Part shown: positions 13,544 to 47,337 of the stretch, piece after piece
How the letters are laid out: every line of letters starts with the position of its first letter
How positions within the stretch are numbered: the stretch's first letter is position 1
Source of the DNA: Poriferisphaera corsica
GTDB lineage: Bacteria > Planctomycetota > Phycisphaerae > Phycisphaerales > Phycisphaeraceae
Direction: 5' to 3'
Assembly (NCBI RefSeq): GCF_007747445.1
Contig: NZ_CP036425.1
Coordinates: 1,534,175-1,598,174 of the forward strand
Length of the DNA: 64,000 nucleotides
Notes under the pieces: model-generated
The model's input: only the letters and a program-made list of their open reading frames with translations
Told to the model about the DNA's origin: nothing
Database searches by the model: none
Translations under genes and position numbers: made by a program

Positions 13544-13791
13544 TGGCAGGTTTGTGGGCATGCCATACGATTCCTGATAGCAATCAGAAAACGATAAGTG
13601 ACATGTATTAATGTATTTATGATTCCGAAGAGGTGCTCAGGTTGCAGCTTATTTCTGGCACACCAATTGCCATACATATTGGCAGTCGGTGTGAGTGCGC
13701 ATGCTTCGCATTAGGTGCTCAGCGACGAAATGGCGGGGACACACTGTTCAGAAATACTCAATCCATGGACCCCTAAAGGAGATACGTGGTA

Positions 13792-17807: not shown

Positions 17808-18947
17808 ATGGCCACAGAGCGCGACTATTACGAAATCCTCAGCATTGAACGCACCGCAAGCGGTGATGAAATCAAACGCGCCTACCGCAAAATGGCGATG
17901 AAATATCATCCCGACCGCAATCCAGACTCCGAAGAAGCCGAAATCAAATTCAAAGAATCTGCTGAAGCCTACGAAGTTCTAGCCGACGAAGATAAACGTC
18001 GTCTCTACGACCAGTATGGCCACGCAGGCCTCAAAGGACGCGCCGGGCATAACTTTAACCAGATGGATCCCAACGACATCTTCTCGATGTTCGGTGATAT
18101 CTTCGGCGACATGTTTGGCGGCGGCGGTGGACGCGCACGCGGCGGCCCACGTGGCAATCGACCAACCCGAGGTTATGACCTCGAAACACTCGCCGAAATC
18201 TCACTCGAAGAAGTCCTCTCAGGCTGCGAAAAAGATATCGACTTCACCCGTCAGGATGAGTGTGATACCTGTCATGGCTCCGGTGCAAAGCCCGGCACAG
18301 ATCCCACCACTTGCTCAACCTGTGGCGGCAACGGTCAAGTCATGCAATCCGGCCTCGGCGGCATGTTCCGCATGGTCGCAACCTGTCCCGACTGTAACGG
18401 CCAAGGTAAAGTTGTTAAAGAACACTGCCCCGATTGTCGTGGCAAAGGACGCATCCTCAAAGACCGCAAAATTTCAGTCAAAATCCCCGCGGGCGTTCAC
18501 GATGGCCAAGCCGTCCGAGTCGGCGCAGAGGGCGAACCCGGACTCAATGGCGGCCCACGTGGTGACCTTCATGTCGTCATTCGTGTCGAGCAGCACAGCC
18601 TCTTTGTCCGTGATGGCGATGATATCATCCTCAAAATGCCTATCAGCTTCACGCAAGCCTCACTCGGCGCCAAGGTCGACATCCCGACCCTCGAAGGCGA
18701 AGATGAAATCACGATCGGCGCAGCTTCGCAGCATGGTGATGTGATCAAGATTTCTGGAAAAGGACTACCAAACTTACGCTCCGGCCGCCGAGGAAATCTC
18801 CTCGTCGTTCTCCTGATCGAGATTCCCAAGAAGCTCACCGATAAGCAGGAGCAACTTCTACGTGAGTTTGCTGAGACAGAGGATCATGATGTGCTTCCGC
18901 ATACCAAAGGTTTCTGGGAGAAGATCAAAGAGCACCTTGGCGCCTAG
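17808..18947 (+). CDS. dnaJ: Chaperone DnaJ
   Basis: A 379-residue type I J-protein with all parts in order. The J-domain (residues 4-70) has His34-Pro35-Asp36 for DnaK stimulation. A Gly/Phe region follows at about 75-125 ([12 protein letters not shown]). The zinc-finger domain has four CxxCxGxG repeats ([32 protein letters not shown]; about 151-214). The C-terminal substrate-binding domains end with the dimerisation tail. It delivers unfolded clients to DnaK. No dnaK lies in the window; the partner must be elsewhere. grpE follows about 240 bases downstream. Confidence 0.95.
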
Positions 18948-30066: not shown

Positions 30067-30984
30067 TTAAGGCGTCTGTACAGATTTTTCTGTATCAACC
30101 TGAGCTTGAGCTGTGTTCAATGGAGTCATACTGGAGAGATGTGCGGTGAAGCCGGCTGGGAGTTTGTAGTCAGGGTTCGGGATCTCGAAAACGCATCTAA
30201 ACGTTTGACTCGCCGAATCAATGATTGGGTCTACATAGGTTAGTTGTGCTTTAAGTGGGCCATTGATCGGCTCGTCCGCAATGATCGTGTACGTTTGATC
30301 CTTTTGCAGTTGCCCAAAGACTGATACGGGCAAGTACATGTTCACTTTTAGTGGATCTAGGGATGCGATGCTCACCACGGGCTGATCATCTTTTAGTGTT
30401 GCTCCAGTTTCTGTATGGATTCGGATTACCTGCCCATCAAAGGGTGCTTCAATGCGATGTTCATTGAGCTTTTCTAGTTCCAGTTCATACTGCGTTTTCA
30501 TCTGGTCTTTGCCTTCAATAGCCAGATCATAATCCGCTCGTGCTTGTTCAAGAACAACCTTCGCTCGCTGTTCTTCGAAATTAGAAGCTGCATGTCTTGC
30601 AACCATTTCGTTTGTCTGGTTATAAACAAGATCTGCTTCATCTAAAGCTGCCTTCGCACGCTCCATTGCTGCATTAGATTCGGCTTGCTGTTTGGCAACC
30701 AATACTACAAATGACTGCACCCGATCATCCATCTGAGCCATGCGATCACCTTCAATGATGCGATCACCTTCCTTGACCTCGACATTCTTAAGAATGCCTT
30801 GGAATGGAGCAATCACCTCAACTTCTTGTGATGGAATAACAACGCCTTCATACTTCTCGAAGTCGATTAATTGCTCGGATGTCTTTTCAGCTGTCTGATC
30901 TTGCCCATGTAGTCCCGTACTTACGTTGGCAAGCAATACGATAGCCAAAATTGTTGGAATTGTTCTCATGTATTTAACGCTCAT
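30067..30984 (-). CDS. Periplasmic adaptor (HlyD/RND membrane-fusion type)
   Basis: A 305-residue exported protein. The N-terminus is a signal peptide (TIPTILAIVLLANVSTGLHG). Residues about 45-80 are the first half of a biotinyl-lipoyl-like domain (GVVIPSQEVEVIAPFQGILKNVEVKEGDRI). A helical hairpin of coiled-coil character follows at about 90-165, then the second lipoyl half (APFDGQVIRIHTETGATLKDDQPVVSI), and a beta-barrel to the end. Such adaptors bridge inner-membrane transporters and the outer membrane. It is divergent from the LEPR-XLL giant gene across a 650-base control region, and two further HlyD-like proteins lie downstream of that gene. A joint export machine is therefore likely, although no RND pump or ABC transporter gene is present here. 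Confidence 0.8.
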   Translation of the reverse strand: MSVKYMRTIPTILAIVLLANVSTGLHGQDQTAEKTSEQLIDFEKYEGVVIPSQEVEVIAPFQGILKNVEVKEGDRIIEGDRMAQMDDRVQSFVVLVAKQQAESNAAMERAKAALDEADLVYNQTNEMVARHAASNFEEQRAKVVLEQARADYDLAIEGKDQMKTQYELELEKLNEHRIEAPFDGQVIRIHTETGATLKDDQPVVSIASLDPLKVNMYLPVSVFGQLQKDQTYTIIADEPINGPLKAQLTYVDPIIDSASQTFRCVFEIPNPDYKLPAGFTAHLSSMTPLNTAQAQVDTEKSVQTP

Positions 30985-31634
30985 TTCGGATTAATGTTAT
31001 GGCCCAATACATTTATAAGTTCCGCAATTAATATTAGCCATCTGCTCTTAACCACAATTGGTTTATTAGGGAAGAACACGCAAGGGAAGTAGATCAATGG
31101 TTATTTTGATGTTCTGTTTCATTTCCATGCTACTGACTCAAATGTGAATCGAAGCTTAAGCACAATTATTAAGCAACTCTACGTCGCACTTGTCTTGTAA
31201 GTGGCGAAGAAAACACAACAAAGTAGGCTTAGAAAATACCCCAGAACGTTTAGCGTTAAGCACAGCTTAATCATGCGTTATGTACAATTCCACGCAAATA
31301 GAAGGGTATTACCAAGTATCGCTTGATCTGTAACGTGAACCGTGTGCATGTTTTTTAAGCATGATTTGATTTTTAGGTATTGAATGGGATAAATACAGCA
31401 CTTGGTGAAACTGGAATCGTCCAGCGAAGCAAATTACCCTCGTTAACAACTACACACATAGAATTTTGCAACAGGTCAGCATTAACCACATTGACTAGCA
31501 ATCACATGGATGTCATCAGCGTATTAAACAGGAAGTTAAATGCGTTTGCTATCGTGCGGCAGCCTGATGCAAGTGCAGCAGCGGAGCAAGGTGATGTTCT
31601 TCTCCTACTGCTTCATTGAAGGAGCTTCTGAAAT
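30985..31634. other. Divergent control region of the LEPR-XLL cluster
   Basis: A 650-base region without a convincing gene. It contains repeated TTAAGC elements: GCTTAAGCACAATTATTAAGC at 31154-31174 in two overlapping arms, TTAAGCACAGCTTAA at 31256-31270, and TTAAGC at 31355-31360. A 79-codon frame at 31380-31619 starts at TTG with no ribosome site and is probably not real. AAGGAG at 31619-31624 serves the giant gene. Confidence 0.5.
31256..31270. promoter_or_regulatory. Perfect palindrome TTAAGC-ACA-GCTTAA, candidate operator
   Basis: The two arms are exact complements with a three-base centre. The sequence TTAAGCACA also occurs at 31156-31164, exactly 100 bases upstream, inside another inverted repeat. 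Location in the shared control region of the adaptor gene and the LEPR-XLL gene suggests a regulator binding site. Confidence 0.4.
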
Positions 31635-34600
31635 ATGGTACGTCAAAGCAAAAAGTCATCAAACAGCAAAAAAGAACAAAAACAAAAACGTAAATCTAAT
31701 CGTTCTAAAAAGGATGAAAATGCACCACGAGGTCTTGAATCGCTTGAGCAACGCCTCATGATGAGTGCCAGTCCGCTGGGTGATGACGCCAGTATCGTGC
31801 AAGACGAGCCGACTTCAGCAGCTATTGAAGCTGCCGCGCAATCAGTTGAGCAAACCGCAAACATCGTTGTGTCTGCTACGGACACATGGAGTTCTGGCTT
31901 TACCGGTTCGCTAACTCTCACCAACAATAGTGCAGAAGCTTGGGACAGTTGGCGCGTCGAGTTTGAAACGCCACATGATATCTCAAGTGCATGGAATGCG
32001 CAGTTCGAGAATCTTGGCGAAGGACGCTACGCGATCTCTAACCCTTCTTGGGCATCCGCACTTGCTTCAGGTGATTCAGTAGAAATCGGTTTCAGTGCAA
32101 ACTCCGCTTATGATGGCCAAGGTGCCACTATTACGAATGTCGAGACAACCGCTGGTACTGGCGAGACTCCAGATACAGGTACAGGCACGCCCACAACCCC
32201 CGGCGGCACCCCCGGTGAAACCGTAGGTGAAGGCGCGCCTGCCATTGCGAATATTAATATCACTGACGAACGTCCAAGTGACGGTGAATTCACCGTCAGC
32301 TTTGCAAAATACTCCGGCGCTGCAGCCACTTCTTGGGAGTTACTTGAGAACGGCGAAGTGGTTGCTTCAGGTGATTTTGATACGCTTGGAACGACTCAGA
32401 CCGGCTCTGTCGATATTACCGGTCACGACTACGGCGTCTACGAATATCAAGTCCGTCTAATCAACGATGAGGGCAGCAGTATCAGCGCCTCATCAGCCAA
32501 AGCAACAAATGGTGCCAGTTTCATTACAATCGACGAAGTCGACGCTGGTGATCAAGCTCTACAGCTAACTGTCGAGCAGGGACAAACCGTTTTTGCGCTC
32601 GATGATCTTCGCAGTGAAAATGAGTCATTCGTTGCCTACACCAACAACGGCAGTGTGCTTGATGTTGCCATCAATGCCGACGGCGATTTAGTTGTCTCAG
32701 GTCTTGATGCCGGCCGTGGTTCTGTCCGTATCGTCAACACCGAAACAGGTGAGGAGCGTTTCGTCGGCGTCCGTGTTCTGACAGATGAAGGCGAAGTCCC
32801 AGGCCGCCCAGACTATCTCGCGATTGGATCTGTATCAGAAGACAGCGCTGCTGATATCGGATTTTGGCAAGACTTTGGTGATGGTGAAGAAGGCACGAAC
32901 AAACGCGTCGATTCCCGCTACATATACCTCAATGGTGGCCCAGAAAACGGATGGCGTTCATGGCAAGACGGTCAACGTCTTCAAAGCTATCTTCGTGAAT
33001 CCCTTAAGCTTGGTATCACCCCGCAATTCGTCTACTACAACATTCCCGACGGCGGTGAATCCTACTACACCAACAATGAACACCTAAACAGCGAAGAATA
33101 TATGCGAGGTTATTTCGAAGATCTGCAATTCGCACTCGAAACAATCGAAGAAATCGCAGGTGATGAAAAAGTTGAACTTATCTTCGAGCCAGATTTCATC
33201 GGCTATCTCATGCAGCTTGGCCAAGTCCCTGCAGATCAGGTATTCGCATTCACCGATCAAGTTTACGAAGTCGGCCTTCTTGAACGTGGTGTCGACCCCA
33301 ATTTTGATAACACCGTCACAGGTCTCATCCAAGCCATCAACTATTCCGTCAGCAATGCTGATGCAAATATCGATTTTGGTTGGCAATTCAATCTCTGGGC
33401 ATCGCCCGGCATCAATGTCGGTATTCCATCTACCGGCCTCATTCGAATAACAGATAGCCTCGGCCTCGACGCAGGCCGTGAAGCAATCGTTGCTGAAGCC
33501 CAGGAAATCGCGAACTATTATCTCAACGCTGGCGTCACAAGCTATGGTGCCGATTTTATCTCTATTGATAAATATGGATTGGATGCAGTCGGCTATCAAG
33601 CTGGCGCAGCCGCCGATCCAGAGTCAGGCACATGGTTCTGGAATCAGGATCACTGGGATAACTATCTTCTTTTCACCAAAACGCTTCACGAAACAACCGA
33701 ACGGCCCGTCACACTTTGGCAGATCCCCGTCGGACGCATCAATGGTTCCGAATCCGTCAATCCATACACTGGCGAAGCATTTGAAGATCTCCCTAATACG
33801 ACAGCTCGCTATGAAGACTCAGCAGGTACATACTTCTTCGGTGACACATTCACCGGCGATCAAAACCGTGTTGACTACTTCGGCGAAAACTTAGACGGTA
33901 ACGACGGCGTGACCGTTGATGGCAACAGCATTACATGGGAAGCCGCATGGGAAAAAGTCGCTGACGCTGGCGTCACCCAAGTCCTCTTTGGTGCAGGTGT
34001 TGGTATCTCAACCGATGGCGTAGGCTCTCCTCCAACCGATGGCTATTGGTTCATCTCCAAAGTTCAAGAATACTACGACAATCCAGTTGAACTAGACGGC
34101 GAGTATGCTGAAACCGTACCCGATGCTGGTTCAGGTGTCGTAACACCACCCGACTCTGGTACAGGCGAAACCCCAGATACCGGCACAGGTGAAACGCCTG
34201 ATTCCGGCCAAGAAGTCACGCCAAACGCAGCTCTCGCTGTCGCCATTGACTCCGCATGGAGCAACGGCTTCTCCGCCAACGTGACCATCACCAACCCAAC
34301 AGATGCTGCAGTCGACACCTGGACCGTCGAGTTCTCCGTCCCAGATGGTGTCGATATTACAAGCCTTTGGAACGGCAACCTTGAAGACCTTGGCGATAAC
34401 CGTTTCCGTATCACCGATCTCGGCTGGAATGGATCACTTGAGGCTGGTGCTTCGACCGAAGTTGGCTTTGTTGGTGCCGGCGCTGTCGGTTCTGCAACCC
34501 AACTAGCTGTTTCAAACGTCACATTCAATGGCGTTCCAGTTGGTGTTCCTACAACCACACCCGGTGAAACAGAAACACCTGACACAGGTACCGGCGAGAC

Positions 34601-36773
34601 CCCAGATACCGGCACGGGTGAAACACCTGACACAGGTGTTGGTGAAACGCCAGATACCGGCACGGGTGAAACACCGGACACAGGTGTTGGTGAAACGCCA
34701 GATACCGGCACGGGCGAAACGCCGGACACGGGTGTTGGTGAGACGCCAGATACCGGCACGGGCGAGACACCGGACACAGGTGTTGGTGAGACCCCAGACA
34801 CCGGCACGGGTGAAACACCGGACACGGGTGTTGGCGAGGAAGTGAATCCAGCCGTCGCACTCACAGTCGATTCTGCATGGAGTAATGGCTTCAATGCATC
34901 ACTAACTGTGACCAACACAACCGATGGCCCAATCGACAGTTGGACAGTTGATTTCACTTTGCCTGATGGCATTGCGATCTCAAGCCTATGGAACGGCGTT
35001 CTCGAAGATCTTGGCGACAACCGTTTCCGCGTCAGTAATGTTGATTGGAACGGCAGCCTTGGTGTTGGTAGTTCTCTGACCATCGGCTTCGGTGGCACCG
35101 GTGACCCTTCTAACTTGCAGATAGCTGACGTCGAATTCAATGGTACCGCAGCCGTTGTCACTAACCCAGAAACCAACCCAGGCACAACCCCCGGCGCAGG
35201 TGAAACACCAGATGCTGGTGTCACTGACCCAATCGCAGCCCTACCGAGTGCGACTATCGAAGGAGTTTCGGTCACTGATTCGCATGACGGCCAGAAACAG
35301 GTCATGGTCACCGTCTCAATCGATGAACCATCCGATGAAGCAGTGACTATCGAGTACCGTACACAGGACCGCTCTGCAGTCGCCGGTGAAGACTACGTTG
35401 CAACCAGTGGTGTAGTGACCATCGAACCCGGCGAAACAACCGCCAGCATCGCTGTCGGCATCATCGGTGATAATATCGAAGAATACAACGAACGTTTCGA
35501 CGTTGTTCTTCACACCGCTGAAAACGCAAAACTCTCCATCGCTCGAGCAGGTGTCGTGATCGTCGGCGAAAACGGCGAAAAACCAGCCGGTATCGGCGAA
35601 GACGATTACCGTGTCGTCGGCTACTTCCCCGAATGGGCTGTCTATCAGCGTGATTACCACATCGCTGACGTCCCTGCGGATAACCTCACCCACCTCATCT
35701 ACGCATTCGCTGATGTGACTGCTTCTGGTGATGTCACACTCTTCGACAGCTACGCAGCCGTCGAGAAGTCCTATCCAGGTGACGTTTGGGATCAAGAGCT
35801 GCGCGGCAACTTCAACCAGATGAATCAGCTCAAAGCCGAAAATCCACACCTTAAAACCATGATCGCCCTCGGCGGCTGGACCCTCTCAGCACACTTCTCG
35901 GATGTTGTTTCAACTGAAGCAGGTCGAGAAATCCTTGCTGAAAACGCAGTCCAGTTCATGCTCCAATACGGCTTCGATGGTATCGATATCGACTGGGAAT
36001 TCCCAGGCGGTGGAGGCCTCGAGGGCAACTCATCGAGCCCTAATGACCGTGAGAACTTCACACTCTTTATTCAGGAACTCCGCGCACAACTTGACACGCA
36101 ATCACAGGTTGATGGCAACGAATACGAACTCTCCGTTGCAATTTCTGCAGGTTACGACAAGTTCGCACACGTTGAACTCGAAGCGGTCTCACAATCCATC
36201 GACTTCTACAACATGCTCACCTACGACTTCCACGGTCGCTGGGACGCAACACAAACCGGTCATCTCTCTGGCCTCTACAACTCAGACTCTAATACAAACT
36301 TAGACCCGCGATATAACGCAGACTCAGCCATACAGGAATTCCTCGCCGCTGGCGTTGATTCCAAGAAGATTGTCCTCGGTGCGCCACTCTACGGCTTCGG
36401 CTGGACCGGTGTCTCTGATGTCAACAACGGTCTTCATCAAGCAGCCGCAGGTCTTGCTCCAGGCGGTATCGAAGAAGGCTACTACGAGTTCCGTGACGTT
36501 TACGAGCTGGTCAAAAATAACCCAGATTCCTACCAGTTCTACTACGACGAGTCCGCTCAAGCCACATACGTCTATGCCAAGAACATCGCAGGCGGCACCT
36601 TCATCACCATCGAAGATGCTCGCTCCATGCAAGCTAAGATTGATTACGTTCAGGAATACAATCTCGGCGGCATGATGTTCTGGGAAATTTCAAACGATCT
36701 TCGCGAAACGGATCATCCCGACAGCCTTGTTCTACAGGTTGCAGATCAGCTCCTTCGCGGCGTGACTGTCTAA
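31635..36773 (+). CDS. Giant LEPR-XLL protein with three CBM2, unclassified TIM-barrel-like domain, Calx-beta and GH18 chitinase
   Basis: A 1712-residue modular protein. Residues 1-33 are Lys/Ser-rich with no hydrophobic signal peptide. LESLEQRLMMSA (34-45) is a LEPR-XLL type motif. Then come: a CBM2 cellulose/chitin-binding module (about 76-165); a beta region; an enzyme-like domain (about 385-830) with EPD at 518-520; CBM2 number 2 (about 865-965); a Thr/Pro/Gly repeat linker (about 978-1070); CBM2 number 3 (about 1072-1170); a Calx-beta domain (about 1205-1310); and a C-terminal GH18 domain (about 1318-1700). The GH18 active-site motif DGIDIDWEF has the proton donor Glu1455. It should degrade chitin or a related beta-1,4-linked glycan outside the cell. 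The following HlyD, M50 and SecA-like genes probably export it. The ribosome site AAGGAG is well placed. Confidence 0.9.
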   Translation: MVRQSKKSSNSKKEQKQKRKSNRSKKDENAPRGLESLEQRLMMSASPLGDDASIVQDEPTSAAIEAAAQSVEQTANIVVSATDTWSSGFTGSLTLTNNSAEAWDSWRVEFETPHDISSAWNAQFENLGEGRYAISNPSWASALASGDSVEIGFSANSAYDGQGATITNVETTAGTGETPDTGTGTPTTPGGTPGETVGEGAPAIANINITDERPSDGEFTVSFAKYSGAAATSWELLENGEVVASGDFDTLGTTQTGSVDITGHDYGVYEYQVRLINDEGSSISASSAKATNGASFITIDEVDAGDQALQLTVEQGQTVFALDDLRSENESFVAYTNNGSVLDVAINADGDLVVSGLDAGRGSVRIVNTETGEERFVGVRVLTDEGEVPGRPDYLAIGSVSEDSAADIGFWQDFGDGEEGTNKRVDSRYIYLNGGPENGWRSWQDGQRLQSYLRESLKLGITPQFVYYNIPDGGESYYTNNEHLNSEEYMRGYFEDLQFALETIEEIAGDEKVELIFEPDFIGYLMQLGQVPADQVFAFTDQVYEVGLLERGVDPNFDNTVTGLIQAINYSVSNADANIDFGWQFNLWASPGINVGIPSTGLIRITDSLGLDAGREAIVAEAQEIANYYLNAGVTSYGADFISIDKYGLDAVGYQAGAAADPESGTWFWNQDHWDNYLLFTKTLHETTERPVTLWQIPVGRINGSESVNPYTGEAFEDLPNTTARYEDSAGTYFFGDTFTGDQNRVDYFGENLDGNDGVTVDGNSITWEAAWEKVADAGVTQVLFGAGVGISTDGVGSPPTDGYWFISKVQEYYDNPVELDGEYAETVPDAGSGVVTPPDSGTGETPDTGTGETPDSGQEVTPNAALAVAIDSAWSNGFSANVTITNPTDAAVDTWTVEFSVPDGVDITSLWNGNLEDLGDNRFRITDLGWNGSLEAGASTEVGFVGAGAVGSATQLAVSNVTFNGVPVGVPTTTPGETETPDTGTGETPDTGTGETPDTGVGETPDTGTGETPDTGVGETPDTGTGETPDTGVGETPDTGTGETPDTGVGETPDTGTGETPDTGVGEEVNPAVALTVDSAWSNGFNASLTVTNTTDGPIDSWTVDFTLPDGIAISSLWNGVLEDLGDNRFRVSNVDWNGSLGVGSSLTIGFGGTGDPSNLQIADVEFNGTAAVVTNPETNPGTTPGAGETPDAGVTDPIAALPSATIEGVSVTDSHDGQKQVMVTVSIDEPSDEAVTIEYRTQDRSAVAGEDYVATSGVVTIEPGETTASIAVGIIGDNIEEYNERFDVVLHTAENAKLSIARAGVVIVGENGEKPAGIGEDDYRVVGYFPEWAVYQRDYHIADVPADNLTHLIYAFADVTASGDVTLFDSYAAVEKSYPGDVWDQELRGNFNQMNQLKAENPHLKTMIALGGWTLSAHFSDVVSTEAGREILAENAVQFMLQYGFDGIDIDWEFPGGGGLEGNSSSPNDRENFTLFIQELRAQLDTQSQVDGNEYELSVAISAGYDKFAHVELEAVSQSIDFYNMLTYDFHGRWDATQTGHLSGLYNSDSNTNLDPRYNADSAIQEFLAAGVDSKKIVLGAPLYGFGWTGVSDVNNGLHQAAAGLAPGGIEEGYYEFRDVYELVKNNPDSYQFYYDESAQATYVYAKNIAGGTFITIEDARSMQAKIDYVQEYNLGGMMFWEISNDLRETDHPDSLVLQVADQLLRGVTV
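34570..34836 (+). repeat. 24-base tandem repeats coding the GETPDTG(T/V) linker
   Basis: An 8-residue unit GETPDTGT alternating with GETPDTGV is repeated about ten times in frame inside the giant gene, giving a 48-base higher-order period. It forms a flexible linker between CBM2 number 2 and number 3. Shorter runs of the same linker occur at about 32158-32220 and 34130-34205. The near-identical DNA units should be prone to copy-number change. Confidence 0.9.
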
Positions 36774-36793
36774 TCACAACAAAAATCAACCCC

Positions 36794-36825
36794 TGGCGAT
36801 CTGGTGAGAAATCATCAGATCGCCA
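36794..36825 (+). terminator. Strong hairpin after LEPR-XLL gene
   Basis: TGGCGATCTG (36794-36803) and CAGATCGCCA (36816-36825) are perfect complements. The T-tract is missing, so it may only attenuate transcription or protect the long upstream message while allowing read-through to the GAF-HlyD gene. Confidence 0.5.
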
Positions 36826-36886
36826 TTCCTATTAAACCCAACCCTGACACGCACAAGGAACCCACAGCGGCATTAACAAATGAAAC

Positions 36887-38878
36887 ATGAGGTCGAATAT
36901 GATTGAACCACGTAAACAAGCCGTTGTTCAAGGAAGACAGCGAAACCCAAAAATACAAGCAAAAACTAACACAAACATTCCTCAATCCGATGTGCAGCGT
37001 CGTTCGCAAAACCGTAGCATGTCTCTTTCTTTTGATACGACTCAATGGATTGATCGTCTTGATAATTTTCAAGGCGCATTCCCTGATTTTGTCAAAGAAC
37101 TTCTCTCCGTTCAATGCCTCGTTGCAAAAGCTTCCGCCGGGGCTATTATCCAGCAAGGTGCTGCTGATGCTGGAGGTTGGGGTGTAATCGCCTCCCGCCC
37201 AGTCCTTGATAATAAATCTGGCTTACCAGATTGGCTCAATCGTGCTCTCAAAGACGTTCCCCCGATCAACAACGCAAAGCAAGCCTACCTCAAACGTCAC
37301 AACGTTTCCAAACGCAACCAGCGATCCGAAGGCGCAAAACTCGAATTCATCATCTATCTTCCATTGATCTACGATAACACCAAGCGTGTGTTAGGCGCAT
37401 TCTGGATAGCTGTCGAAACCGAAGCTGTTGCTCGCGAACGCGCCAATCAACTTAAACTTACTCAAGGCGCATACACCACTTTTGAGTTACGCAACCAGCT
37501 ATTGAAACAAGAAGACGATATGAAAATCGTCACCCGCGCCGTTGCTGTGCTTGATCAGTTTAATACGCATCAAAAATTTCAAGCCGCCGCGATGGCTCTT
37601 TGTAATGAGATCGCGACAGAATGGCGTGCCGATCGTGTCTCACTTGGCCTGCGTCGTGGCCAATACGTCAAAGTGATCGCGATCAACCAAACCGAGAATT
37701 TTTCTCGGAAAATGCAGCTCATTCATGACATCGAAGGGGTCATGGAAGAGTGTTACGATCAAGATATCGAGGTTTTTGTTCCGCAACCACCCGATGTCCC
37801 AATCATTTCCCGCCAAGCCAAGCGTCTCTCAGATCGTTACGGACCGTGTAACATCTACTCATTCCCGCTACGCCGTGACGATCATCTCATCGGCGTTCTA
37901 ACCGCCGAAATGCCACTTGATCGACCACTTAATGAAAACGCACTCGAAGGCATGCGACTTCTCGCTAATCTCATCGCACCACGCGTAGACGATCTCGAAA
38001 AATCTAATAAGTGGATAGGTCTTCAACTTCTCGAATCTACCAAAAAAGCCGGCCAAACAATCGTCGGCCCCACACACACATGGGTCAAGCTTACCGGCAT
38101 CGGCCTTCTCACAGCGATAGTTCTTCTCTTCACAATCCCCGCCACTGATTGGGTTGAATCTTCCTTCCAAATCGACGCCACCAAACGTCAAGTCATCGCA
38201 TCACCATTTGATGGCTATATCGATGAAGTATTCGTCGAACCCGGCGACGTCGTTACATCCGATCAACAAGTTCTCGCCTCACTTGCCATCGGTGATCTCA
38301 TGCTAAACCGTGCCGCGCTGAATGCGCGTCTTGCTGAATCCACCATTGACGCTGACATCGCTCGCCGTGAAGGCTCTACCGTTGACGTCCACATTGCTCA
38401 AGCTAAATCCGATGCCATTAAAGCCGAGCTCGGCATCGTTGATGATGATATCGAGGACGCTCGCATGCAAAGTCCGATCACCGGCATCGTTATTGATGGT
38501 GACCTTCAGCCCCGTACCGGCGGCGCCGTCCAACGTGGCGAAGCTCTTTTTGAAATCGCCCCTATCGACTCACTTCGCGCCGAGCTATACGTACCCGAAG
38601 ACCGCATCAATGATGTTCAGCCCGGTCAACGTGGCTCGTTATCCACTGCAGCCTCACCCGGTAACTACATTGATTTTACCGTTGAGCGAGTAGAACCCAT
38701 GGCCGAGGTTCGTAACGGCCAGAACGTTTTCCTCGTCCGCGTCAAACTAGACACCATGCCCTCATGGCTACGACCCGGCATGCAAGGCCTTGCCAAAATC
38801 GACACCGGGGAAACTAACTACGTTCATCGCTGGTCACGTGGTGCCATCAATTGGCTACGCATGAAGCTCTGGCTCTAA
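36887..38878 (+). CDS. GAF domain / membrane-anchored HlyD-like protein
   Basis: A 663-residue protein. A hydrophilic N-terminus (about 1-45) is followed by a globular region, a GAF sensor domain at about 208-370 (TEWRADRVSLGLRRGQYVKV, PLRRDDHLIGVLTAEM), one membrane segment at about 400-420 (GLLTAIVLLFTIPA), then a periplasmic HlyD-type part. That part shows lipoyl halves (QVIASPFDGYIDEVFVEPGD, then QSPITGIVIDGDL...GEALFEIAP), a short helical hairpin and a barrel (LRAELYVPEDRINDVQPGQRG). A cytosolic GAF domain joined to an export adaptor is unusual and suggests gating by a small molecule or partner. The ATG at 36899 is an alternative start. It lies between the LEPR-XLL gene and the M50 gene in the same direction. 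Confidence 0.8.
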   Translation: MRSNMIEPRKQAVVQGRQRNPKIQAKTNTNIPQSDVQRRSQNRSMSLSFDTTQWIDRLDNFQGAFPDFVKELLSVQCLVAKASAGAIIQQGAADAGGWGVIASRPVLDNKSGLPDWLNRALKDVPPINNAKQAYLKRHNVSKRNQRSEGAKLEFIIYLPLIYDNTKRVLGAFWIAVETEAVARERANQLKLTQGAYTTFELRNQLLKQEDDMKIVTRAVAVLDQFNTHQKFQAAAMALCNEIATEWRADRVSLGLRRGQYVKVIAINQTENFSRKMQLIHDIEGVMEECYDQDIEVFVPQPPDVPIISRQAKRLSDRYGPCNIYSFPLRRDDHLIGVLTAEMPLDRPLNENALEGMRLLANLIAPRVDDLEKSNKWIGLQLLESTKKAGQTIVGPTHTWVKLTGIGLLTAIVLLFTIPATDWVESSFQIDATKRQVIASPFDGYIDEVFVEPGDVVTSDQQVLASLAIGDLMLNRAALNARLAESTIDADIARREGSTVDVHIAQAKSDAIKAELGIVDDDIEDARMQSPITGIVIDGDLQPRTGGAVQRGEALFEIAPIDSLRAELYVPEDRINDVQPGQRGSLSTAASPGNYIDFTVERVEPMAEVRNGQNVFLVRVKLDTMPSWLRPGMQGLAKIDTGETNYVHRWSRGAINWLRMKLWL

Positions 38879-38913
38879 AAACAGACATATTCAACTAACC
38901 ATGAGATAGTAAC

Positions 38914-41121
38914 ATGGCAACTGATAGACCAACATTTTCGGAATCATGGTACCGTGTCGGCCCGCTCAAACCACGACTTCGTTCAGTCGTCCAAACCACA
39001 CGTCAACAATACCGTGGCCACATTTGGCATATACTTCGTGACCCCGCGAATAATAAGTTCTATCGCCTCGACGAACCTTCCTACCACTTCGTTGGCCTTC
39101 TTGACGGTAATCGAACCATCGATGACGCATGGAAAAAAGCTTGCGCCGATCTTCACGACGCCGCCCCCACACAAGGCGAAGTCATTCAAACCCTCGGTCA
39201 GCTCTATCAAAACAATCTTTTAGACGCTGACATCACCCCCGACGTCTCAGGCATGTTTGAACGCCAGCGCGAACGTAAAAAACGCGAAGTTGGCGGCTAC
39301 CTCATGAACCTCCTCTTCTCAAAAATCCCCGTTTGGGACCCCGATCGATTCCTCAACCATTGGACGCCCCTCGTAGGCTGGATCTTCAGCCCAATCGGAT
39401 TCCTCCTCTGGACTGTTCTCATCATTTACGGCGTCTTCAACGTCATCAATCATGGCTCGCAATTCTTCAATCAAGCTTCCGCCGTCCTCTCGCCGTCCAA
39501 CCTTGGTTGGCTCTTCGTCTCGACCATCATCATCAAACTCGTCCACGAGTCAGGCCACGCTTTCGCCTGCAAATACTTTGGCAATAAAGAAAATCGCGGC
39601 GGCGTCGAAGGCATCGGTGGTGAAGTTCACACAATCGGCGTTATGTTCGTCGCACTCATCCCCATGCCCTATGTCGATACCTCATCATCATGGACCCTAC
39701 GCAATAAACTCCACCGCGCATTTATCGGCGCAGCCGGCATGTACCTCGAACTCGCCATCGCAGCCGTCGCCGCGATTGTTTGGGCAAACACTGCCATGGG
39801 CACAGTTCCTCATGCCGTCGCCTACAACATGATCTTCATCGCATCCGTCACAACCTTTCTCTTTAACGCCAACCCTCTCATCCGTTTTGATGGCTACTAC
39901 ATCCTCTCAGACCTCACCGAAATGCCCAATCTCGCCAATCGCTCGAAAGAATACCTTTACTGTATCATCAAAAAATACATTTACGGCGTCCCCAATCCAA
40001 ACGACCCATCCCACTCAGCCGCAGAACGACCCTGGCTTCTAACCTACGCATTGAGTAGCGCTGTTTACCGTGTTTTTATCTCTGTCGGGATCATTCTCTT
40101 TGTAGCCGATAAACTCATCATCCTTGGCCTCATCATGGCCCTCTCCACCGTCATCGGTATGGTCATCGTGCCATTCGGAAAATGGATGCACTACCTCTTC
40201 ACTTCCGGCGAACTTCGAAAGAATCGTACTCGCGCACTCACCGCTACTTTCTCAACAGCTTTCGTTGCCTTCCTCCTCATTGGCGCGATCCCCATGCCTG
40301 ATCGCTCACGTGCGCAAGGCTTCGTTCGCCCCGACCAGATCACCACGGTTTACGCCGAAACCGAGGGTTACGTCGAGGCTATTCTCCCATCAGGCGCCTT
40401 TGTACACCCTGATGATGACTTGCCACTGGTCGAGTTGCGAAATGTTCATCTCGAATTTGAACGTGATAAGCTCACCGCTCAAAAACACGAATACCTTGCA
40501 AAATACCGTAAAAATCGTACTGAAGATATTGCTTCGGCCAAAGCTATGCGCGAACACCTCGACGCAATCGATGAGGAAATCAAGCGTGCGGATCGTGATG
40601 TTCAGCGCTTGAATGTGAAAGCGCCATTCACAGGCAACTGGATCGTTGGTAACGGCGATTCGATTACTGGGCAATACGTCCAGCGCGGCCAAGAAATCGG
40701 ACAAGTCGCATCACTCAATGATATGCAAATCGTAGTCACCGCAAACCAGTTTCTCGGGCCTCGTCTCTATGAATTACCCAACGAAAAAGTACCCGTTGAA
40801 ATCCGCATTCAAGGCAGGCCTGATCTGAAATTTAAGGGCACCATCGAACGCGTCATCGCCGCAGGACAACGCGATCTTCCATCCGAAGCGCTGGGACAAC
40901 AGGCCGGAGGCGAAATGGCTATGCAGCAAGATGAGCAATCCGGCCAGATGATGGCCTCGGAAGTATTCTTCGAGGTTCTTGTTAACCCCGATAGGGATGT
41001 TGATTTCAGACTTTACCCCGGACAGCGCGTTGTTGTTCAATTTGATATGCCAAACAAAACGGTACTCGCTCAAGGTTGGCGTACTTTCCGTCAACTGATT
41101 CAAACCCGTTTCCAAATCTAA
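38914..41121 (+). CDS. PqqD-like / M50 metalloprotease / HlyD fusion membrane protein
   Basis: A 735-residue protein. Residues about 20-110 resemble a PqqD-type winged helix (HILRDPANNKFYRLDEPSYH, LLDGNRTIDDAW), the fold that binds leader peptides in RiPP and pilin-like systems. Membrane segments begin at about 150. The M50 site-2-protease signature is complete: H211-E-S-G-H215 and N320-P-L-I-R-F-D326-G. After further membrane segments the periplasmic C-terminus (about 465-735) has lipoyl halves and a helical hairpin of HlyD type (AETEGYVEAILPSGAFVHPD, VKAPFTGNWIVGNGDSITG). The protein could recognise, cleave and hand over a substrate in one chain. It sits 36 bases after the GAF-HlyD gene, so they form an operon. 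Confidence 0.82.
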   Translation: MATDRPTFSESWYRVGPLKPRLRSVVQTTRQQYRGHIWHILRDPANNKFYRLDEPSYHFVGLLDGNRTIDDAWKKACADLHDAAPTQGEVIQTLGQLYQNNLLDADITPDVSGMFERQRERKKREVGGYLMNLLFSKIPVWDPDRFLNHWTPLVGWIFSPIGFLLWTVLIIYGVFNVINHGSQFFNQASAVLSPSNLGWLFVSTIIIKLVHESGHAFACKYFGNKENRGGVEGIGGEVHTIGVMFVALIPMPYVDTSSSWTLRNKLHRAFIGAAGMYLELAIAAVAAIVWANTAMGTVPHAVAYNMIFIASVTTFLFNANPLIRFDGYYILSDLTEMPNLANRSKEYLYCIIKKYIYGVPNPNDPSHSAAERPWLLTYALSSAVYRVFISVGIILFVADKLIILGLIMALSTVIGMVIVPFGKWMHYLFTSGELRKNRTRALTATFSTAFVAFLLIGAIPMPDRSRAQGFVRPDQITTVYAETEGYVEAILPSGAFVHPDDDLPLVELRNVHLEFERDKLTAQKHEYLAKYRKNRTEDIASAKAMREHLDAIDEEIKRADRDVQRLNVKAPFTGNWIVGNGDSITGQYVQRGQEIGQVASLNDMQIVVTANQFLGPRLYELPNEKVPVEIRIQGRPDLKFKGTIERVIAAGQRDLPSEALGQQAGGEMAMQQDEQSGQMMASEVFFEVLVNPDRDVDFRLYPGQRVVVQFDMPNKTVLAQGWRTFRQLIQTRFQI

Positions 41122-41257
41122 ATCCTCTCCCCAATCCCCCTCAAGACCACGACCGCCGATCGTGAGGTGCGTTTTGGTTTAATACACAAAGAACACAGCT
41201 CATTGACGAACCTAAAGAATTTTGCAACACGACTGAACATCGTAATTGGATAGATCC

Positions 41258-43318
41258 ATGGCAGAAGTCATCAAACAACACGAACGATTTACGATCGCAG
41301 ATGATGAAATCAAGTCCGCACTCGATCCCGCCAATATGCCCCGCATTCACGCCCAGATTGCTTGGGAGGCATGCAAAAGGTGGCAGCCCCTCAAAGGTGA
41401 TCGTGAAGCCAAGAAATTGCTTAAAGGTTTCGATGCTTTCTGGGACACCGGCATCGCGCGGTTCGTCAATCTCTATCCTCGCACGCATGTACTCATGAAA
41501 CGCGCAGCCAAAATCATCGAAATCTCAGAAACCTTTAAAGATCTATCCGAAGCAGATTTCAAAGAAAAAATCCAAGAATACCGTGAAATTTACCGCAGAA
41601 GTAAAGATGATGATCAATCGCAGATGATCGCACTAGCCATCGTCCGCGAAGCTTCTCGCCGTTCTACTGGCATGGCCCACTATCAAAATCAGATCGCTTG
41701 CGCCCTTGCGATTACCCGTCACTCGCTCGCAGAGATGGCAACCGGTGAAGGCAAAACACTAACCGCGACAATGCCAGCAGTCCTCGAAGGTTGGCGCGGC
41801 CGCGGCGTTCATGTGATGACTTCTAACGACTATCTCGCGCATAGAGACGCTGAAGAAATGCGGCCAGTTTATGAATACTGCGGCCTAAAAGTGTCCGCTG
41901 TCACCAATGAGATGGCGCCCAACGATCGCCGTAATGCATATTACGATGACGTCACATATGCGACGCATCAGAACGTTGCCGCTGATTACTTGCGTGACAA
42001 ACTTCAGCTCGGCAGTATCCGCTCACTCACGCATTCAATCCTGGACCGTGTACGCTCAGGTAAGAAGGGCGTCTCAAACAAACTCGTGATGCGCGGCCTC
42101 GCCGCCGCTGTTATTGATGAAGCCGATTCGATTCTCGTTGATGAATCCGTGACCCCCCTCATCATCTCCGGCGATTCCGATTCTACCGAGGAAGAAGCCG
42201 CCTACCATGAAGCCCGTGAGCTTGCTCAGCAACTCATTGAAAACGTGGATTATAAAGTTAACGTCAAATTCAAAGAGGTTGAATTAACAAGGCAAGGTAA
42301 TCATCATCTTGAGGAACTAACTGAAGAAATGAAAGGTATATGGCAAAGCGGTCGCATGCGTGAAGAGTGGGTCAATCAGGCACTTACCGCGGCTCACCTA
42401 TTCAATGAGGGCGAGCAGTACATCATTGATGATAAGAAGATTGTGATCGTAGATGAGTCAACCGGACGGTTGATGCCCGACAGAACATGGCGAGCCGGTT
42501 TACATCAGGCGGTTGAGGCCAAAGAAGATGTCCCGGTAACCGGCGCGAAGGAAACACTTGCACGGATCAGTTTCCAACGGTTTTTCAGGTTATACCCACG
42601 TATCGGCGGCATGACGGGAACAGGATGGGAAGCACGAAACGAGATGTGGCAGATGTATCGACTGCCAACTGTTCGTATTCCGACGAACAAACCATGTGTC
42701 CGCGAACAGTTGCCTGAAAAAGTATTCAGCAACGATGAGCAGCGCTGGCAGGGTGTGATTGAGGAAGTGAAACGTGTGCATCAATCCAAACGCCCGATCC
42801 TGATTGGCACGCGCAGTATTGAGACAAGTGAGAAAATGAGTGATCTGTTGAAGAAAGCGGGGATTGAACATCAGGTACTCAATGCAGTCAATCATGCGGA
42901 GGAAGCGGACATCGTTTCAGCGGCCGGCCAAGAAGGTCGGGTTACTGTTGCAACCAATATGGCGGGGCGTGGAACAGATATCAAGTTGAAACAGGAGGTG
43001 AAGGATTTTGGCGGATTACATGTGGTGTCGTGCGAACGAAACGAGACGGGCAGGGTGGATCGACAGTTGTTTGGTCGCGCGGGGCGGCAGGGTGATCCGG
43101 GTAGTGCGATTTCGTTTGCAGCGATGGATGATGATCTGGTGATTCGGTATGGGCCGAGCAAGATTGCGCGGTATTTGGGTAAGTTTATGAATGGTAGCCG
43201 AGCGTTTGATAAAGCGCAGCAGAATGCAGAGAAGCAGGCGTATCGACAGCGGAAGAGTGTGTTGAAGCAGGATGATTGGCTGCGAAAGAATCTTGGGTTT
43301 GCGGGTTCTGAGCATTGA
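41258..43318 (+). CDS. SecA-like preprotein translocase ATPase, short accessory form
   Basis: A 686-residue protein from ATG 41258 (a TTG four codons upstream is less likely). The SecA motor is intact: Walker A ATGEGKT at 161-167, THQNVAADYLRD, Walker B DEAD at 287-290, and the C-terminal helicase motifs TNMAGRGTDIKL and RQLFGRAGRQGDPGS. It is about 150-200 residues shorter than housekeeping SecA and ends soon after NBD2. The C-terminal zinc-binding tail, and probably most of the wing and scaffold region, are missing. It would power export as a SecA2-type motor. Context directly after the M50/HlyD genes suggests a dedicated client, the LEPR-XLL protein. No Shine-Dalgarno is obvious. Base composition changes from C-rich to G-rich within the gene at about 42250-42350. 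Confidence 0.85.
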   Translation: MAEVIKQHERFTIADDEIKSALDPANMPRIHAQIAWEACKRWQPLKGDREAKKLLKGFDAFWDTGIARFVNLYPRTHVLMKRAAKIIEISETFKDLSEADFKEKIQEYREIYRRSKDDDQSQMIALAIVREASRRSTGMAHYQNQIACALAITRHSLAEMATGEGKTLTATMPAVLEGWRGRGVHVMTSNDYLAHRDAEEMRPVYEYCGLKVSAVTNEMAPNDRRNAYYDDVTYATHQNVAADYLRDKLQLGSIRSLTHSILDRVRSGKKGVSNKLVMRGLAAAVIDEADSILVDESVTPLIISGDSDSTEEEAAYHEARELAQQLIENVDYKVNVKFKEVELTRQGNHHLEELTEEMKGIWQSGRMREEWVNQALTAAHLFNEGEQYIIDDKKIVIVDESTGRLMPDRTWRAGLHQAVEAKEDVPVTGAKETLARISFQRFFRLYPRIGGMTGTGWEARNEMWQMYRLPTVRIPTNKPCVREQLPEKVFSNDEQRWQGVIEEVKRVHQSKRPILIGTRSIETSEKMSDLLKKAGIEHQVLNAVNHAEEADIVSAAGQEGRVTVATNMAGRGTDIKLKQEVKDFGGLHVVSCERNETGRVDRQLFGRAGRQGDPGSAISFAAMDDDLVIRYGPSKIARYLGKFMNGSRAFDKAQQNAEKQAYRQRKSVLKQDDWLRKNLGFAGSEH

Positions 43319-43871: not shown

Positions 43872-46800
43872 TTAGAAGAGGATGCGGAGTTTTAGGGTTA
43901 GGGATTGAGCGTTGTAGCTGCTGCGGTGTTGGTAGTTGTAATCGAGGGATGTATTGATGGTGTCGCTCGTTTGGTAGCTCATGCCGAGGCCGAGTTCGAT
44001 GGCGGATTTGTCGGTTTCGATGCCTTTGGTTGAGAAGGGGGTTGAGCCGGGGGCCTGGAAGGTTGCGGTGGCTTCGGGTGCGTCGTTATTGATGTCGTAT
44101 ATGTATGCGAGTTTTGAATTGAGCGTGAGTTGATCGTTGTATTGGTAGGCAGCGGCGAAGCTGAGGGTTGAGGAGAGGGTGTGGGCATCGAATGAATCGA
44201 CGGCGAGGTTGAGTGCGTCGGCTTTGGACTCTTCGTATGAGTCTTGTGTGAAGTAGGTGTAGGAGATTTGTGCGTGTGGGGTGAGGGTGAGGCGGTCGTT
44301 GTTTGAGGTGAAGGATTGGCTGAGCCCGAGGTAGTTGGTGAATGCGTGTGAGGTGACATCGTCGGCTTCAGCGGTGCGGCCTAGGGCGGTTTCGCGTTTG
44401 TAATCGGAGAAGCCGAGTGTGTAGATGACGCCGCCGTCTATTTGAAGGTTAGATGGTGTGTATGCGAAGTATGCTGCGGTGGTGAGTGCGTCGAGGTCGG
44501 TAGAGCCGCGTGATTGGTTGGTGTCGATATCAGCGTGCGCGAAGCCGAGGGCAGCGCCGATGAGGAGATTGTCTTGTTTACGATCAATGCCGATGAGTGA
44601 ACCGGCTGATCGTGATTGATAGCCTGCGATGTTGTCAGTGTCGTCTTGCTCTGCGATTGAGCCAAAGGCTGAAGTCCAGAATGCGTACTGGTTCTCTGTG
44701 TCGGGTTCTTCGGATTGTAGGAGTAGAGGATATGCGTTGGGTGAGGAGGTTGAGGCTAACTTTGAGTTAGACATTGTTGAGGTGCGGCCTGCAAGTTTGC
44801 CTGAGAATGAGGTTGTGATTGAAGATGAGGCGGCAACGGTTGAGAGAGATTGCTGTGGTGTGATTTTTTCTAGTTCTTTTTGTAGGGTCGGTTCATCCAT
44901 GGCTTGGAATTGTGCGAGGACAGAGTCGACGTCGGAGATGGATGCGGAATCGAGTGCGTTTTGCAGGGATTTTGCAGCACCAAATGAGGTTGATGCGGCG
45001 TGATCTTGCAGGTCGCCGAAGGTTGTTGCGGTGATGATGATGGAGCCGCCATCGACTGAGAGTTCGGATTCATAGTCGATGAGTGCAGTGTCTAACATGT
45101 AGATAGGGTTATCGCCAGCGGATGTGTCGATGGTGAAGAGAGTGTTTGATTTGATGAGCGTGAATGAGGTTGTTTGGCGAATTGGGCCATCGAGTTTGGA
45201 TTTGATAGTGAGGTTTTTGCCGATGCTTACGGTGTCTGCGACGAACTTGCCAGTGGATTTTTCAGCGGCATTGATTGGAACGATAAGTGTGCAGTTGTCG
45301 CCGATGGTGAGTGAGTCGGAAGTGATGTTGCCTGTGGTTTGGATGGTTGTGTTGTTGGCGGCGTTGAAGGTTGTTGATCTTAGGTTGCCAGCGAAGTTGA
45401 GTGTGCCTGCCTGGAGGTCGATGGTGTCGAGTGTATTGATTTTGTTTGTTTCGTCGACTTCAGAGTTGGTTGTGATATTGAAGACTGGTGCGGGGATGGT
45501 GAGGGAAGGGGTGTCTTGGATGAGGTTAAGTGTTTCGACGTTGATGAGGTCGCCGATGACCGTGGCTTGGTTTTTGAGAGTGAGTGTATCGCCTGTGGTG
45601 ACTTGGTTGCCAAGACGGATGTCGCCGGTAACGGAGCCGCCGTTGGCGATGGTGACGATGTCGTCACTTGGGTTATTCTCTTCCCATACGTTGTTATAGA
45701 TACGTTCGGTCGTAATAGCTGCAACTTTCGCATCTGTGTCTGTCGCGGTCGCAGTAATGGTGCCTGTGATATCTGGCAGGTTTAGTGACCGGTAACCCCC
45801 GATTGCGATTGCTTTGGTTTTGCCAGAAGCGGAGATGTTGCCATCGATGTGCTGAATGTCGATGTCATTGCCAATGATTGCGAATGCACCGGTATTGGGA
45901 GCGGATACGGAGATTTGTGAATCTGCTGTGATGGTATCAATATTGAGTTCGGTGAAATATAGTCCGTAGCCTAGCCAAGCTTGTGAGTTTGTGTGTGCGA
46001 TGATGTCGCCAGCGAATGTGCTGGTGTTCATTGTATCGCCATGCATGCCGCGAACATCACCTTGCTCGGAATGCAGAATGATGGATGCTTCTTTGGCAAA
46101 GGTTGGCATATTGAGGGTGTAGCCGTAGTAGGCGAACATGCCTGTTGCATCTGAGTTGTAGCCTGTGGCTGAGATGTTGATTTTGCCTGAGAAGTCGTTG
46201 GTGAAAGTAAGGTTTTTTCTTGCGAAGATGCCGGTGCCGCCCCCTGTTCCGGAGATGAGGAAATCTTCGGTGACGTTGTTGATTGTGATATTGCCTTCGT
46301 CTGCGAATAAGCCGGTAACGCTTGCGTTTTCTGCGCCGATGATTTGGCCAGCGAGATCGCCGGTGATGTCGATGTCGCCTTCATTGGCGCGGATGGCTGT
46401 GCCGCCGTTGCCGATGAGATTGATTTGTGAGTCTTTGGTGATTGAGCCAATGGTGATGTTATTTTCAGCTGTGATCGCGGAGCAGAGAAATGTGCCGCCA
46501 TAGGTATTTAGTGTGAGGTCGCCTGCAAGTTGATTGATGGTTAGGTTGCCTTCGGTGTTGCCGAGTGTGTCGTTGGATTTGATGACGTTGGTGTAATCGC
46601 CACCTGATGCGTAGATGTGTGCGGATTCGGTGATGTCGTTGATGACGATGTCGCCATAACGTTGGATGGCAGTGACGTGACTTGAGTTTTGATTGGTGTG
46701 GATCTCGATGTTGCCGTTGATGTCGTTGAAGTATTTGGCGCTGTAAATTGCTGCGGCGTGATTGCCGGTGGCGTGGACGATGAGTTGTGTTGATGCTGAG

Positions 46801-47159
46801 GTGTTTAGGGTTGAGTTACCGTAGAAACCGATGCCCCGGAAGCCGGATTTGTCGGAGGTGATATCGACTTTGCCGTTGATATTTACGGTTGCGCCGTTGC
46901 CATGGAGCCAGTAGTTGGCGGTGTTGCCTGTGAGGTCGATGATGTAGGGTGAGGAAGGGTCTGAACTGTGGATGGTGTCGGCGAGGTTGAAGGTTGTGCT
47001 GGAAGCGCTTTCGAAGACGGTAGCGGTGCCGGTTGCATCGGCGTGGTAGTCGTAGGTGGAGCCGGTTTTTACCCAGCCTGCGTGGGAGGGGGTGGTGAGC
47101 GTGAGGGAGGAGAAAGCTGCAAGAAGGGCGGCGGTGGAGTGTGTACGAAAAGATATCAT
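43872..47159 (-). CDS. Autotransporter (type V secretion) surface protein
   Basis: A 1095-residue protein from ATG 47159; the frame is open further upstream but this start begins a clear signal peptide (MISFRTHSTAALLAAFSSLT, cleavage after PSHA). The passenger (about 30-790) is Asn/Thr/Ile-rich with repeated short beta strands (NGNIEIHTN, GDIVINDITE, GNLTINQLAGDLTLNTYGG), as in right-handed beta-helix adhesins. The last 280 residues form the autotransporter barrel, beginning at YAFWTSAFGSIAEQDD, with alternating aromatic strands. The chain ends in Phe (SLTLKLRILF), the signature recognised by the BAM complex. This implies a Gram-negative-type outer membrane. Function is probably adhesion or biofilm. 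It is separated from the upstream GntR gene by a terminator. Confidence 0.88.
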   Translation of the reverse strand: MISFRTHSTAALLAAFSSLTLTTPSHAGWVKTGSTYDYHADATGTATVFESASSTTFNLADTIHSSDPSSPYIIDLTGNTANYWLHGNGATVNINGKVDITSDKSGFRGIGFYGNSTLNTSASTQLIVHATGNHAAAIYSAKYFNDINGNIEIHTNQNSSHVTAIQRYGDIVINDITESAHIYASGGDYTNVIKSNDTLGNTEGNLTINQLAGDLTLNTYGGTFLCSAITAENNITIGSITKDSQINLIGNGGTAIRANEGDIDITGDLAGQIIGAENASVTGLFADEGNITINNVTEDFLISGTGGGTGIFARKNLTFTNDFSGKINISATGYNSDATGMFAYYGYTLNMPTFAKEASIILHSEQGDVRGMHGDTMNTSTFAGDIIAHTNSQAWLGYGLYFTELNIDTITADSQISVSAPNTGAFAIIGNDIDIQHIDGNISASGKTKAIAIGGYRSLNLPDITGTITATATDTDAKVAAITTERIYNNVWEENNPSDDIVTIANGGSVTGDIRLGNQVTTGDTLTLKNQATVIGDLINVETLNLIQDTPSLTIPAPVFNITTNSEVDETNKINTLDTIDLQAGTLNFAGNLRSTTFNAANNTTIQTTGNITSDSLTIGDNCTLIVPINAAEKSTGKFVADTVSIGKNLTIKSKLDGPIRQTTSFTLIKSNTLFTIDTSAGDNPIYMLDTALIDYESELSVDGGSIIITATTFGDLQDHAASTSFGAAKSLQNALDSASISDVDSVLAQFQAMDEPTLQKELEKITPQQSLSTVAASSSITTSFSGKLAGRTSTMSNSKLASTSSPNAYPLLLQSEEPDTENQYAFWTSAFGSIAEQDDTDNIAGYQSRSAGSLIGIDRKQDNLLIGAALGFAHADIDTNQSRGSTDLDALTTAAYFAYTPSNLQIDGGVIYTLGFSDYKRETALGRTAEADDVTSHAFTNYLGLSQSFTSNNDRLTLTPHAQISYTYFTQDSYEESKADALNLAVDSFDAHTLSSTLSFAAAYQYNDQLTLNSKLAYIYDINNDAPEATATFQAPGSTPFSTKGIETDKSAIELGLGMSYQTSDTINTSLDYNYQHRSSYNAQSLTLKLRILF

Positions 47160-47337
47160 AGCCTGTGCTTTCAGGTAGATGTTACGGGATGATGTTGTGG
47201 ATTGAAAGCTGTTGAAATGGCTCAATCGCCAACGGAAATTAGCACAGGCGGTGAGGCTTATTGCGAACAATAAGTGTTTGGAATTTTAGTGTAGTCGGTA
47301 TGATTAGTAAAATTCTGAGGGTGTGCGGGCGTGTGAT

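Follow-up and report, generated by a model that had tools for sequence, protein, structure and literature searches.

Our study examined a locus of Poriferisphaera corsica at which the gene for a protein with a LEPR-XLL N-terminus (the client) stands beside genes for HlyD-type adaptors, an RRE-M50-HlyD fusion and a short secondary SecA (together, the module). It lies in a window of 64,000 nt from contig NZ_CP036425.1, the window being the whole stretch of DNA that was analysed, in a genome of 4.29 Mb. The five genes that the first-pass annotation had described were all recovered at their positions (Table 1), and Pfam, NF012209 and hydropathy agreed with its account of the client as a multidomain GH18 protein with a LEPR-XLL N-terminus and no hydrophobic signal. 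The client is followed on the same strand, after 113 bp, by GAF-HlyD, the M50 fusion and SecA, and this order was retained in the only genome of the same genus compared (L082). The annotation had also reported that no ATP-binding cassette (ABC) or resistance-nodulation-division (RND) pump is encoded, and a scan of 26 proteins of the window detected neither an ABC exporter nor an RND pump; the genome outside the window was not searched for an ABC transporter. About five TolC-type (OEP) genes were found elsewhere in the genome, none of them tied to the module locus, and the housekeeping SecA (a 1348-aa open frame) is likewise encoded separately.

Table 1. Features of the LEPR-XLL client and module locus, with positions in the window
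Feature	Position	Strand	Basis and remarks
Adaptor, HlyD/RND_mfp type, 305 aa	30067..30984	-	Pfam/NCBIfam; hydrophobic N-terminus; divergent from client
Client, LEPR-XLL protein, 1712 aa	31635..36773	+	Three CBM2, one Calx-beta and C-terminal GH18 (residues 1326-1688) by Pfam; no hydrophobic signal peptide
LEPR-XLL leader: motif LESLEQRLMMSA at client residues 34-45, with the residues that follow	31734..31781	+	NF012209 match
Hairpin, 14-bp stem, between client and module genes	36794..36825	+	Pattern match only
GAF-HlyD membrane protein, 663 aa	36887..38878	+	One predicted transmembrane segment (398-421)
RRE(PqqD-like)-M50-HlyD fusion, 735 aa	38914..41121	+	Five predicted transmembrane segments by hydropathy
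RRE domain, residues about 18-106 of M50 fusion	38965..39231	+	Structure match; predicted leader-binding site
HESGH zinc-protease motif, residues 211-215	39544..39558	+	Third ligand D326
Short secondary SecA, 690 aa	41246..43318	+	Has motor domains and preprotein-binding domain, lacks C-terminal region

Across the genome, NF012209 matched the client motif alone, with 22.4 bits against the curated cut-off of 17 bits; in hmmscan the motif scored 16.9 bits, just below that cut-off. Apart from Q in place of P, it fits the consensus of 60 LEPR N-termini from many phyla, [FL]-E-x-L-E-P-R-[LVI]-L-L-S-A-D. In that set the motif usually follows a basic stretch, at a median position of about 27, and the client N-terminus is very basic, with a 31-residue stretch (12 K/R) ahead of the motif. 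No hydrophobic stretch was seen in client residues 1-60 (12-aa Kyte-Doolittle maximum, 0.39), and a hydrophobic core was found in 0/60 LEPR N-termini, their peak 12-residue hydropathy being 1.31 compared to 2.48 for the genuine hydrophobic signal of the adaptor. The Pfam family Planc_extracel (PF07595) did not match the client at E 10 and weakly matched two other LEPR proteins (13.6 and 13.4 bits against a gathering cut-off of 25.5). The cargo behind the motif is unrelated from one protein to another (GH18, subtilase, Golvesin_C/fn3, DUF4347), and the motif therefore behaves as a signal rather than as part of one family. The GH18/CBM2 protein is the one recognised client of the module in P. 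corsica, whereas other genomes have several or giant clients, the largest LEPR open frame being one of 18,012 residues in Thiomicrospira microaerophila (L148 genome, G383, C10:53906). LEPR frames of 7,000-14,700 residues were seen in other module genomes.

LEPR proteins were distributed across genomes together with the M50 fusion. Of 101 related genomes, 74 had the fusion and 66 had LEPR proteins, the 66 being wholly contained in the 74 (66/74 with the fusion versus 0/27 without; Fisher 9e-18, and 5e-13 after collapse by genus). A sample of 292 genomes across the phylum gave 77 with the fusion, 34 with LEPR proteins and 33 with both (33/77 versus 1/215; Fisher 4e-21, genus-collapsed 4e-18). 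The gammaproteobacterial order of Marinobacterium, represented by 246 genomes, gave corresponding counts of 52, 31 and 29 (29/52 versus 2/194), and within it 20/24 genomes with the closer M50 subfamily had LEPR proteins, compared to 2/194 without any M50 fusion. Furthermore, genomes from other phyla that had been picked for the module alone, by an M50 gene on the contig, encoded LEPR proteins in 44/50 cases. The first-pass annotation had tied LEPR proteins to this gene group, and had named LEPR proteins being common in genomes lacking the group as the outcome that would speak against it. The association held in three independent samples and in the cross-phylum sample, and the fractions without the fusion (0/27, 1/215 and 2/194) show LEPR proteins to be rare there.

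The two kinds of gene are also neighbours. In the Marinobacterium order, 20/32 LEPR genes have an M50 gene at a distance of 15 kb or less, in most cases of 1-5 kb, where chance would give a few per cent. A loose LEPR pattern applied to open reading frames was discarded, as it produced chance matches (L143, L155, L157, L164 and L166). Its stricter replacement, applied with internal controls, occurred on 22 open reading frame N-termini in 106 module loci, against 2.9 expected from internal sequence. One genome (G515) has two M50 fusion genes (C65 and C123), each beside its own LEPR gene; this genome constitutes a natural test of cognate pairing between leader and RRE. The accompanying genes recur across phyla, with SecA at 65/80, GAF-HlyD at 60/80 and adaptor genes at 39/80 loci of other genomes; in the cases checked, a SecA gene that does not adjoin the M50 gene was located elsewhere in the genome. 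That the module might be specific to planctomycetes was ruled out by its occurrence in Proteobacteria, Verrucomicrobiota, Fibrobacter, Nitrospirota, Omnitrophota and others. The association between LEPR proteins and the module is thus close to certain. LEPR proteins occur almost always in module genomes and often adjoin the module, and the orphan machine is thus probably the partner of the orphan export tag.

Three module genomes negative for NF012209 (G144, G202 and G474) have large open reading frames beside the module that begin with variant motifs (EPLEQRIMLDA, EALEVREVFDA, RELEPRVVLTA and EIMEERLLYSA). Genomes with a module and no LEPR match are therefore in part a matter of the sensitivity of the model, which does not explain all of them. 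Variant leader motifs missed by NF012209 were found beside divergent M50 subfamilies (L064, L078, L079 and L223), a pattern that suggests that leader and RRE co-vary. In a further genome (G440), the leader of a large open reading frame beside the module (L221 13017-18641, - strand) is unreadable owing to a masked run of N near its N-terminus.

Recognition and cutting of the leader by the M50 fusion is the best-supported step of the mechanism we propose, because of the RRE fold, the homology and shared leader spacing with the daptide system and the invariant zinc site. The AlphaFold2 model of the fusion (predicted local distance difference test score, 90.5) contains an RRE with the order strand-strand-strand-helix-helix-helix, and VIA-align matched residues 18-108 to the leader-bound RREs of lasso-peptide systems (6jx3_B, Z 9.5 over 83 residues at 2.8 A; 5v1u_A, 9.3; 5v1v, 9.2). 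The HlyD part resembles MacA (Z 15.9, model comparison). Foldseek with the fusion gave adaptors alone among the matches listed, and a sequence search of solved structures gave no RRE, the matches being adaptors, biotin-carrier domains and one weak M50 match (3b4r, E 0.056). Pfam scores were 20.1 bits for PqqD, below the cut-off of 23.4, and 26.4 bits for M50, just below the cut-off of 27.2. The protease motifs HESGH (at 211) and NANPLIRFD (at 318) place the M50 site in membrane helices of the model, and H211, E212, H215 and D326 were invariant in 22 and in 49 homologues.

The closest curated relative of fusion residues 21-418 was the daptide RRE-peptidase family NF041824 (daptide_HExxH, 1e-42). 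The score of 146.6 bits is under the equivalog cut-off of 300, and the fusion is accordingly a relative of the daptide RRE-peptidases, not a member, that may work alike. Daptide precursors carry the leader motif ELExMEAP, in which L(-7) and M(-4) are required for RRE-dependent processing, as tested with the MpaB RRE; a pair of hydrophobic pockets is predicted to accommodate these two residues, and the leader is taken off by MpaP, an RRE-dependent intramembrane peptidase (PMC10036551). The LEPR core [FL]-E-x-L-E-P-R has the two hydrophobic residues and the glutamate at the same spacing, and 59/60 LEPR N-termini fit [LFVIM][ED]x[LIM]E. The suggestion of the first-pass annotation that the fusion recognises and cleaves the LEPR segment thereby gains strong support of an indirect kind. 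Going by the structural model and the daptide analogy, the RRE is likely to recognise the LEPR leader, and by the same analogy the M50 enzyme is likely to cleave it.

The short SecA keeps its ATPase motifs (GEGKT and DEAD). Its model matched a SecA-SecY machine with Z 39 and Clostridioides difficile SecA2 with Z 38.5, and SecA2 profile models were matched strongly. In the reading that we propose, large proteins that are secreted or sit on the surface carry LEPR-XLL as a non-hydrophobic leader, which directs them into a dedicated route through the module. The RRE of the M50 fusion would bind [FL]-E-x-L-E-P-R as homologous RREs bind leaders of ribosomally synthesized and post-translationally modified peptides (RiPPs), and at the inner membrane the leader would be cut by the M50 zinc protease. 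The cut would probably fall immediately behind LEPR or between SA and D in the conserved xLLSAD, a position guessed from the daptide analogy. The cut-down SecA would provide ATP-driven threading, in a manner other than the normal SecYEG one since its C-terminal region is missing; that it pushes the client out, as the first-pass annotation proposed, is plausible. Passage through the periplasm would use a conduit built of the separate adaptor and the HlyD portions of GAF-HlyD and the M50 fusion, leading to a TolC-type outer-membrane channel encoded elsewhere. From the sequence comparisons, LEPR is likely to serve as the leader of clients that the module exports, being bound by the RRE and cut by the M50 enzyme. 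For the complete reading, an unrecognised secretion system of many phyla in which an RRE reads the LEPR leader and clients of up to ~18,000 residues leave by a cut-down SecA, an RRE-M50-HlyD protein and HlyD conduits, with no ABC or RND pump and no SecYEG, we estimate a probability of about 0.5.

Several observations weigh against this reading. The sequence and the model of the short SecA stop near B. subtilis SecA residue 609-617, and the region past that point comprises the two-helix finger, the wing and the C-terminal linker. The motor thus lacks the part that drives chains through SecY, and the module brings no identified inner-membrane channel. SecA is encoded far from the M50 gene in some genomes. 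The module was present without a LEPR match in 8/74 genomes of the relatives, 44/77 of the phylum sample and 23/52 of the Marinobacterium order, including 4/24 with the close M50 subfamily. Conversely, three LEPR-positive genomes lacked the fusion and gave matches to the HlyD part alone (G227, G445 and G560); the LEPR match of G445, on a 178-residue frame, looks false, and G560 may be an incomplete draft. Finally, related genomes are not independent observations, and kinship was controlled in the co-occurrence statistics only by collapse by genus.

The module might merely process or retain LEPR proteins that cross the inner membrane by another route, either Sec, engaged through a weak signal, or a type I exporter of the ABC kind that reads a C-terminal signal, as for RTX-type giants. 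The M50 and RRE features, which indicate leader processing, and the loss of the SecA C-terminal region would both fit such a role, as would the RTX-like repeats of some LEPR giants (L076 and L226) and the RTX domains of a Vibrio LEPR giant. We nevertheless regard it as unlikely, as none of the 60 LEPR N-termini offers a hydrophobic signal to Sec, the module supplies its own ATPase and HlyD conduit parts, and the window contains a client without an RTX Pfam domain and, among the proteins scanned, no ABC exporter. It is rather improbable that the short SecA instead hands its clients to ordinary SecYEG, in the way of an accessory SecA2 system that uses a special signal. The motor is clearly a SecA, with strong matches to SecA2 models and structure, but the solved SecA2 chains in the same match list are about 780 residues long compared to 690 here, and ordinary SecYEG work by this protein is doubtful because the C-terminal region is missing. 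A coincidence, with LEPR proteins and module both simply common in large-genome, surface-active lineages and adjacent by accident, could draw on the kinship of the genomes and is very improbable, given the recurrence of the pattern in a gammaproteobacterial order and many other phyla besides planctomycetes, the strength of the association after genus collapse, gene distances of 1-5 kb in genomes of 3-6 Mb, and the paired M50 and LEPR genes of G515.

The hairpin between client and module genes is a possible partial terminator or processing site, its tail not being T-rich; it is a strong hairpin and could possibly set a higher ratio of client to machine. Just downstream of the module, on the opposite strand, lies a classical autotransporter (43872-47270, -; beta-domain, 864-1112), which is conserved at the corresponding position in the genome of the same genus (L082 15530-18817). 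Elsewhere in the window are tandem Cpn60 chaperonin genes (13786-15516 and 16020-17633, +) followed by a DnaJ gene (17808-18947), and a gene for the flagellar cap protein FliD (56740-59883, +; 1047 aa) with a large middle region.

Both halves of the proposed system have been reported before. Kamneva, Poudel and Ward (2015) described a locus of secondary SecA_DEAD, HlyD, peptidase M50 and GAF genes, called its broader role completely unknown and proposed the M50 protein as a pore (PMC4452313). The P. corsica locus carries all that defines their module, namely GAF-HlyD, M50-HlyD, a SecA_DEAD protein without wing and scaffold, and an HlyD adaptor. The four genes are the same (forming one operon in Methylobacterium extorquens AM1), as are the wing- and scaffold-less secondary SecA and the lack of an ABC transporter, whereas LEPR and an RRE domain do not feature in that paper, and the client class and leader-recognition step are added here (PMC4452313). 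The tag resembles the planctomycete N-terminal export motif RRLxxExLExRxLLA, a "novel N-terminal export signal" (Studholme 2004, PF07595, cited in PMC8567305), which was found on 8 of the 10 longest proteins of T. immobilis (PMC8567305). As recounted there, the motif shares the E-x-L-E-x-R core and the very large surface proteins, and an export signal was already suspected (PMC8567305); in that account it is treated as planctomycete-specific and assigned no machine, whereas here it occurs in many phyla together with the module.

In the daptide RRE-peptidases (DapP/MpaP), too, an RRE stands N-terminal to the membrane M50 protease with which it is fused, and the leader has L-E-x-[ML]-E spacing; their substrates, however, are short RiPP precursors, and ABC transporters are encoded nearby (PMC10036551). 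The LEPR module, by comparison, has its protease fused to HlyD and paired with SecA, and its clients range from hundreds to 18,000 aa. With type I secretion (HlyB/HlyD/TolC) it shares HlyD-type adaptors at the locus and would probably share a TolC-type channel; it differs in having no ABC transporter at the locus, an N-terminal rather than C-terminal signal and a SecA-type ATPase. The absence of an ABC pump among the window proteins scanned agrees with the distinction from type I secretion drawn in the first-pass annotation. Accessory Sec (SecA2) similarly devotes a second SecA to special clients, but the module SecA is without the C-terminal region and its clients are without a hydrophobic signal peptide. 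In the features tested, the LEPR system departs both from type I secretion and from accessory Sec. A search of openly licensed papers found no published link between LEPR and the module. With module and tag each known before, this link appears to be new; the novelty lies in the pairing and in the proposed RRE-leader mechanism, the parts having been known separately.

In summary, genome statistics have matched an orphan export signal reported in 2004 to an orphan secretion-type locus reported in 2015, and the recognition step proposed for them would borrow the leader-reading domain of RiPP biosynthesis. Proteins of >20,000 residues seldom have a signal peptide (PMC11573180). Giant bacterial proteins are widespread, and the proposal bears on the route by which those lacking a signal peptide are exported. 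If true, the pairing would explain LEPR-XLL proteins across many phyla.

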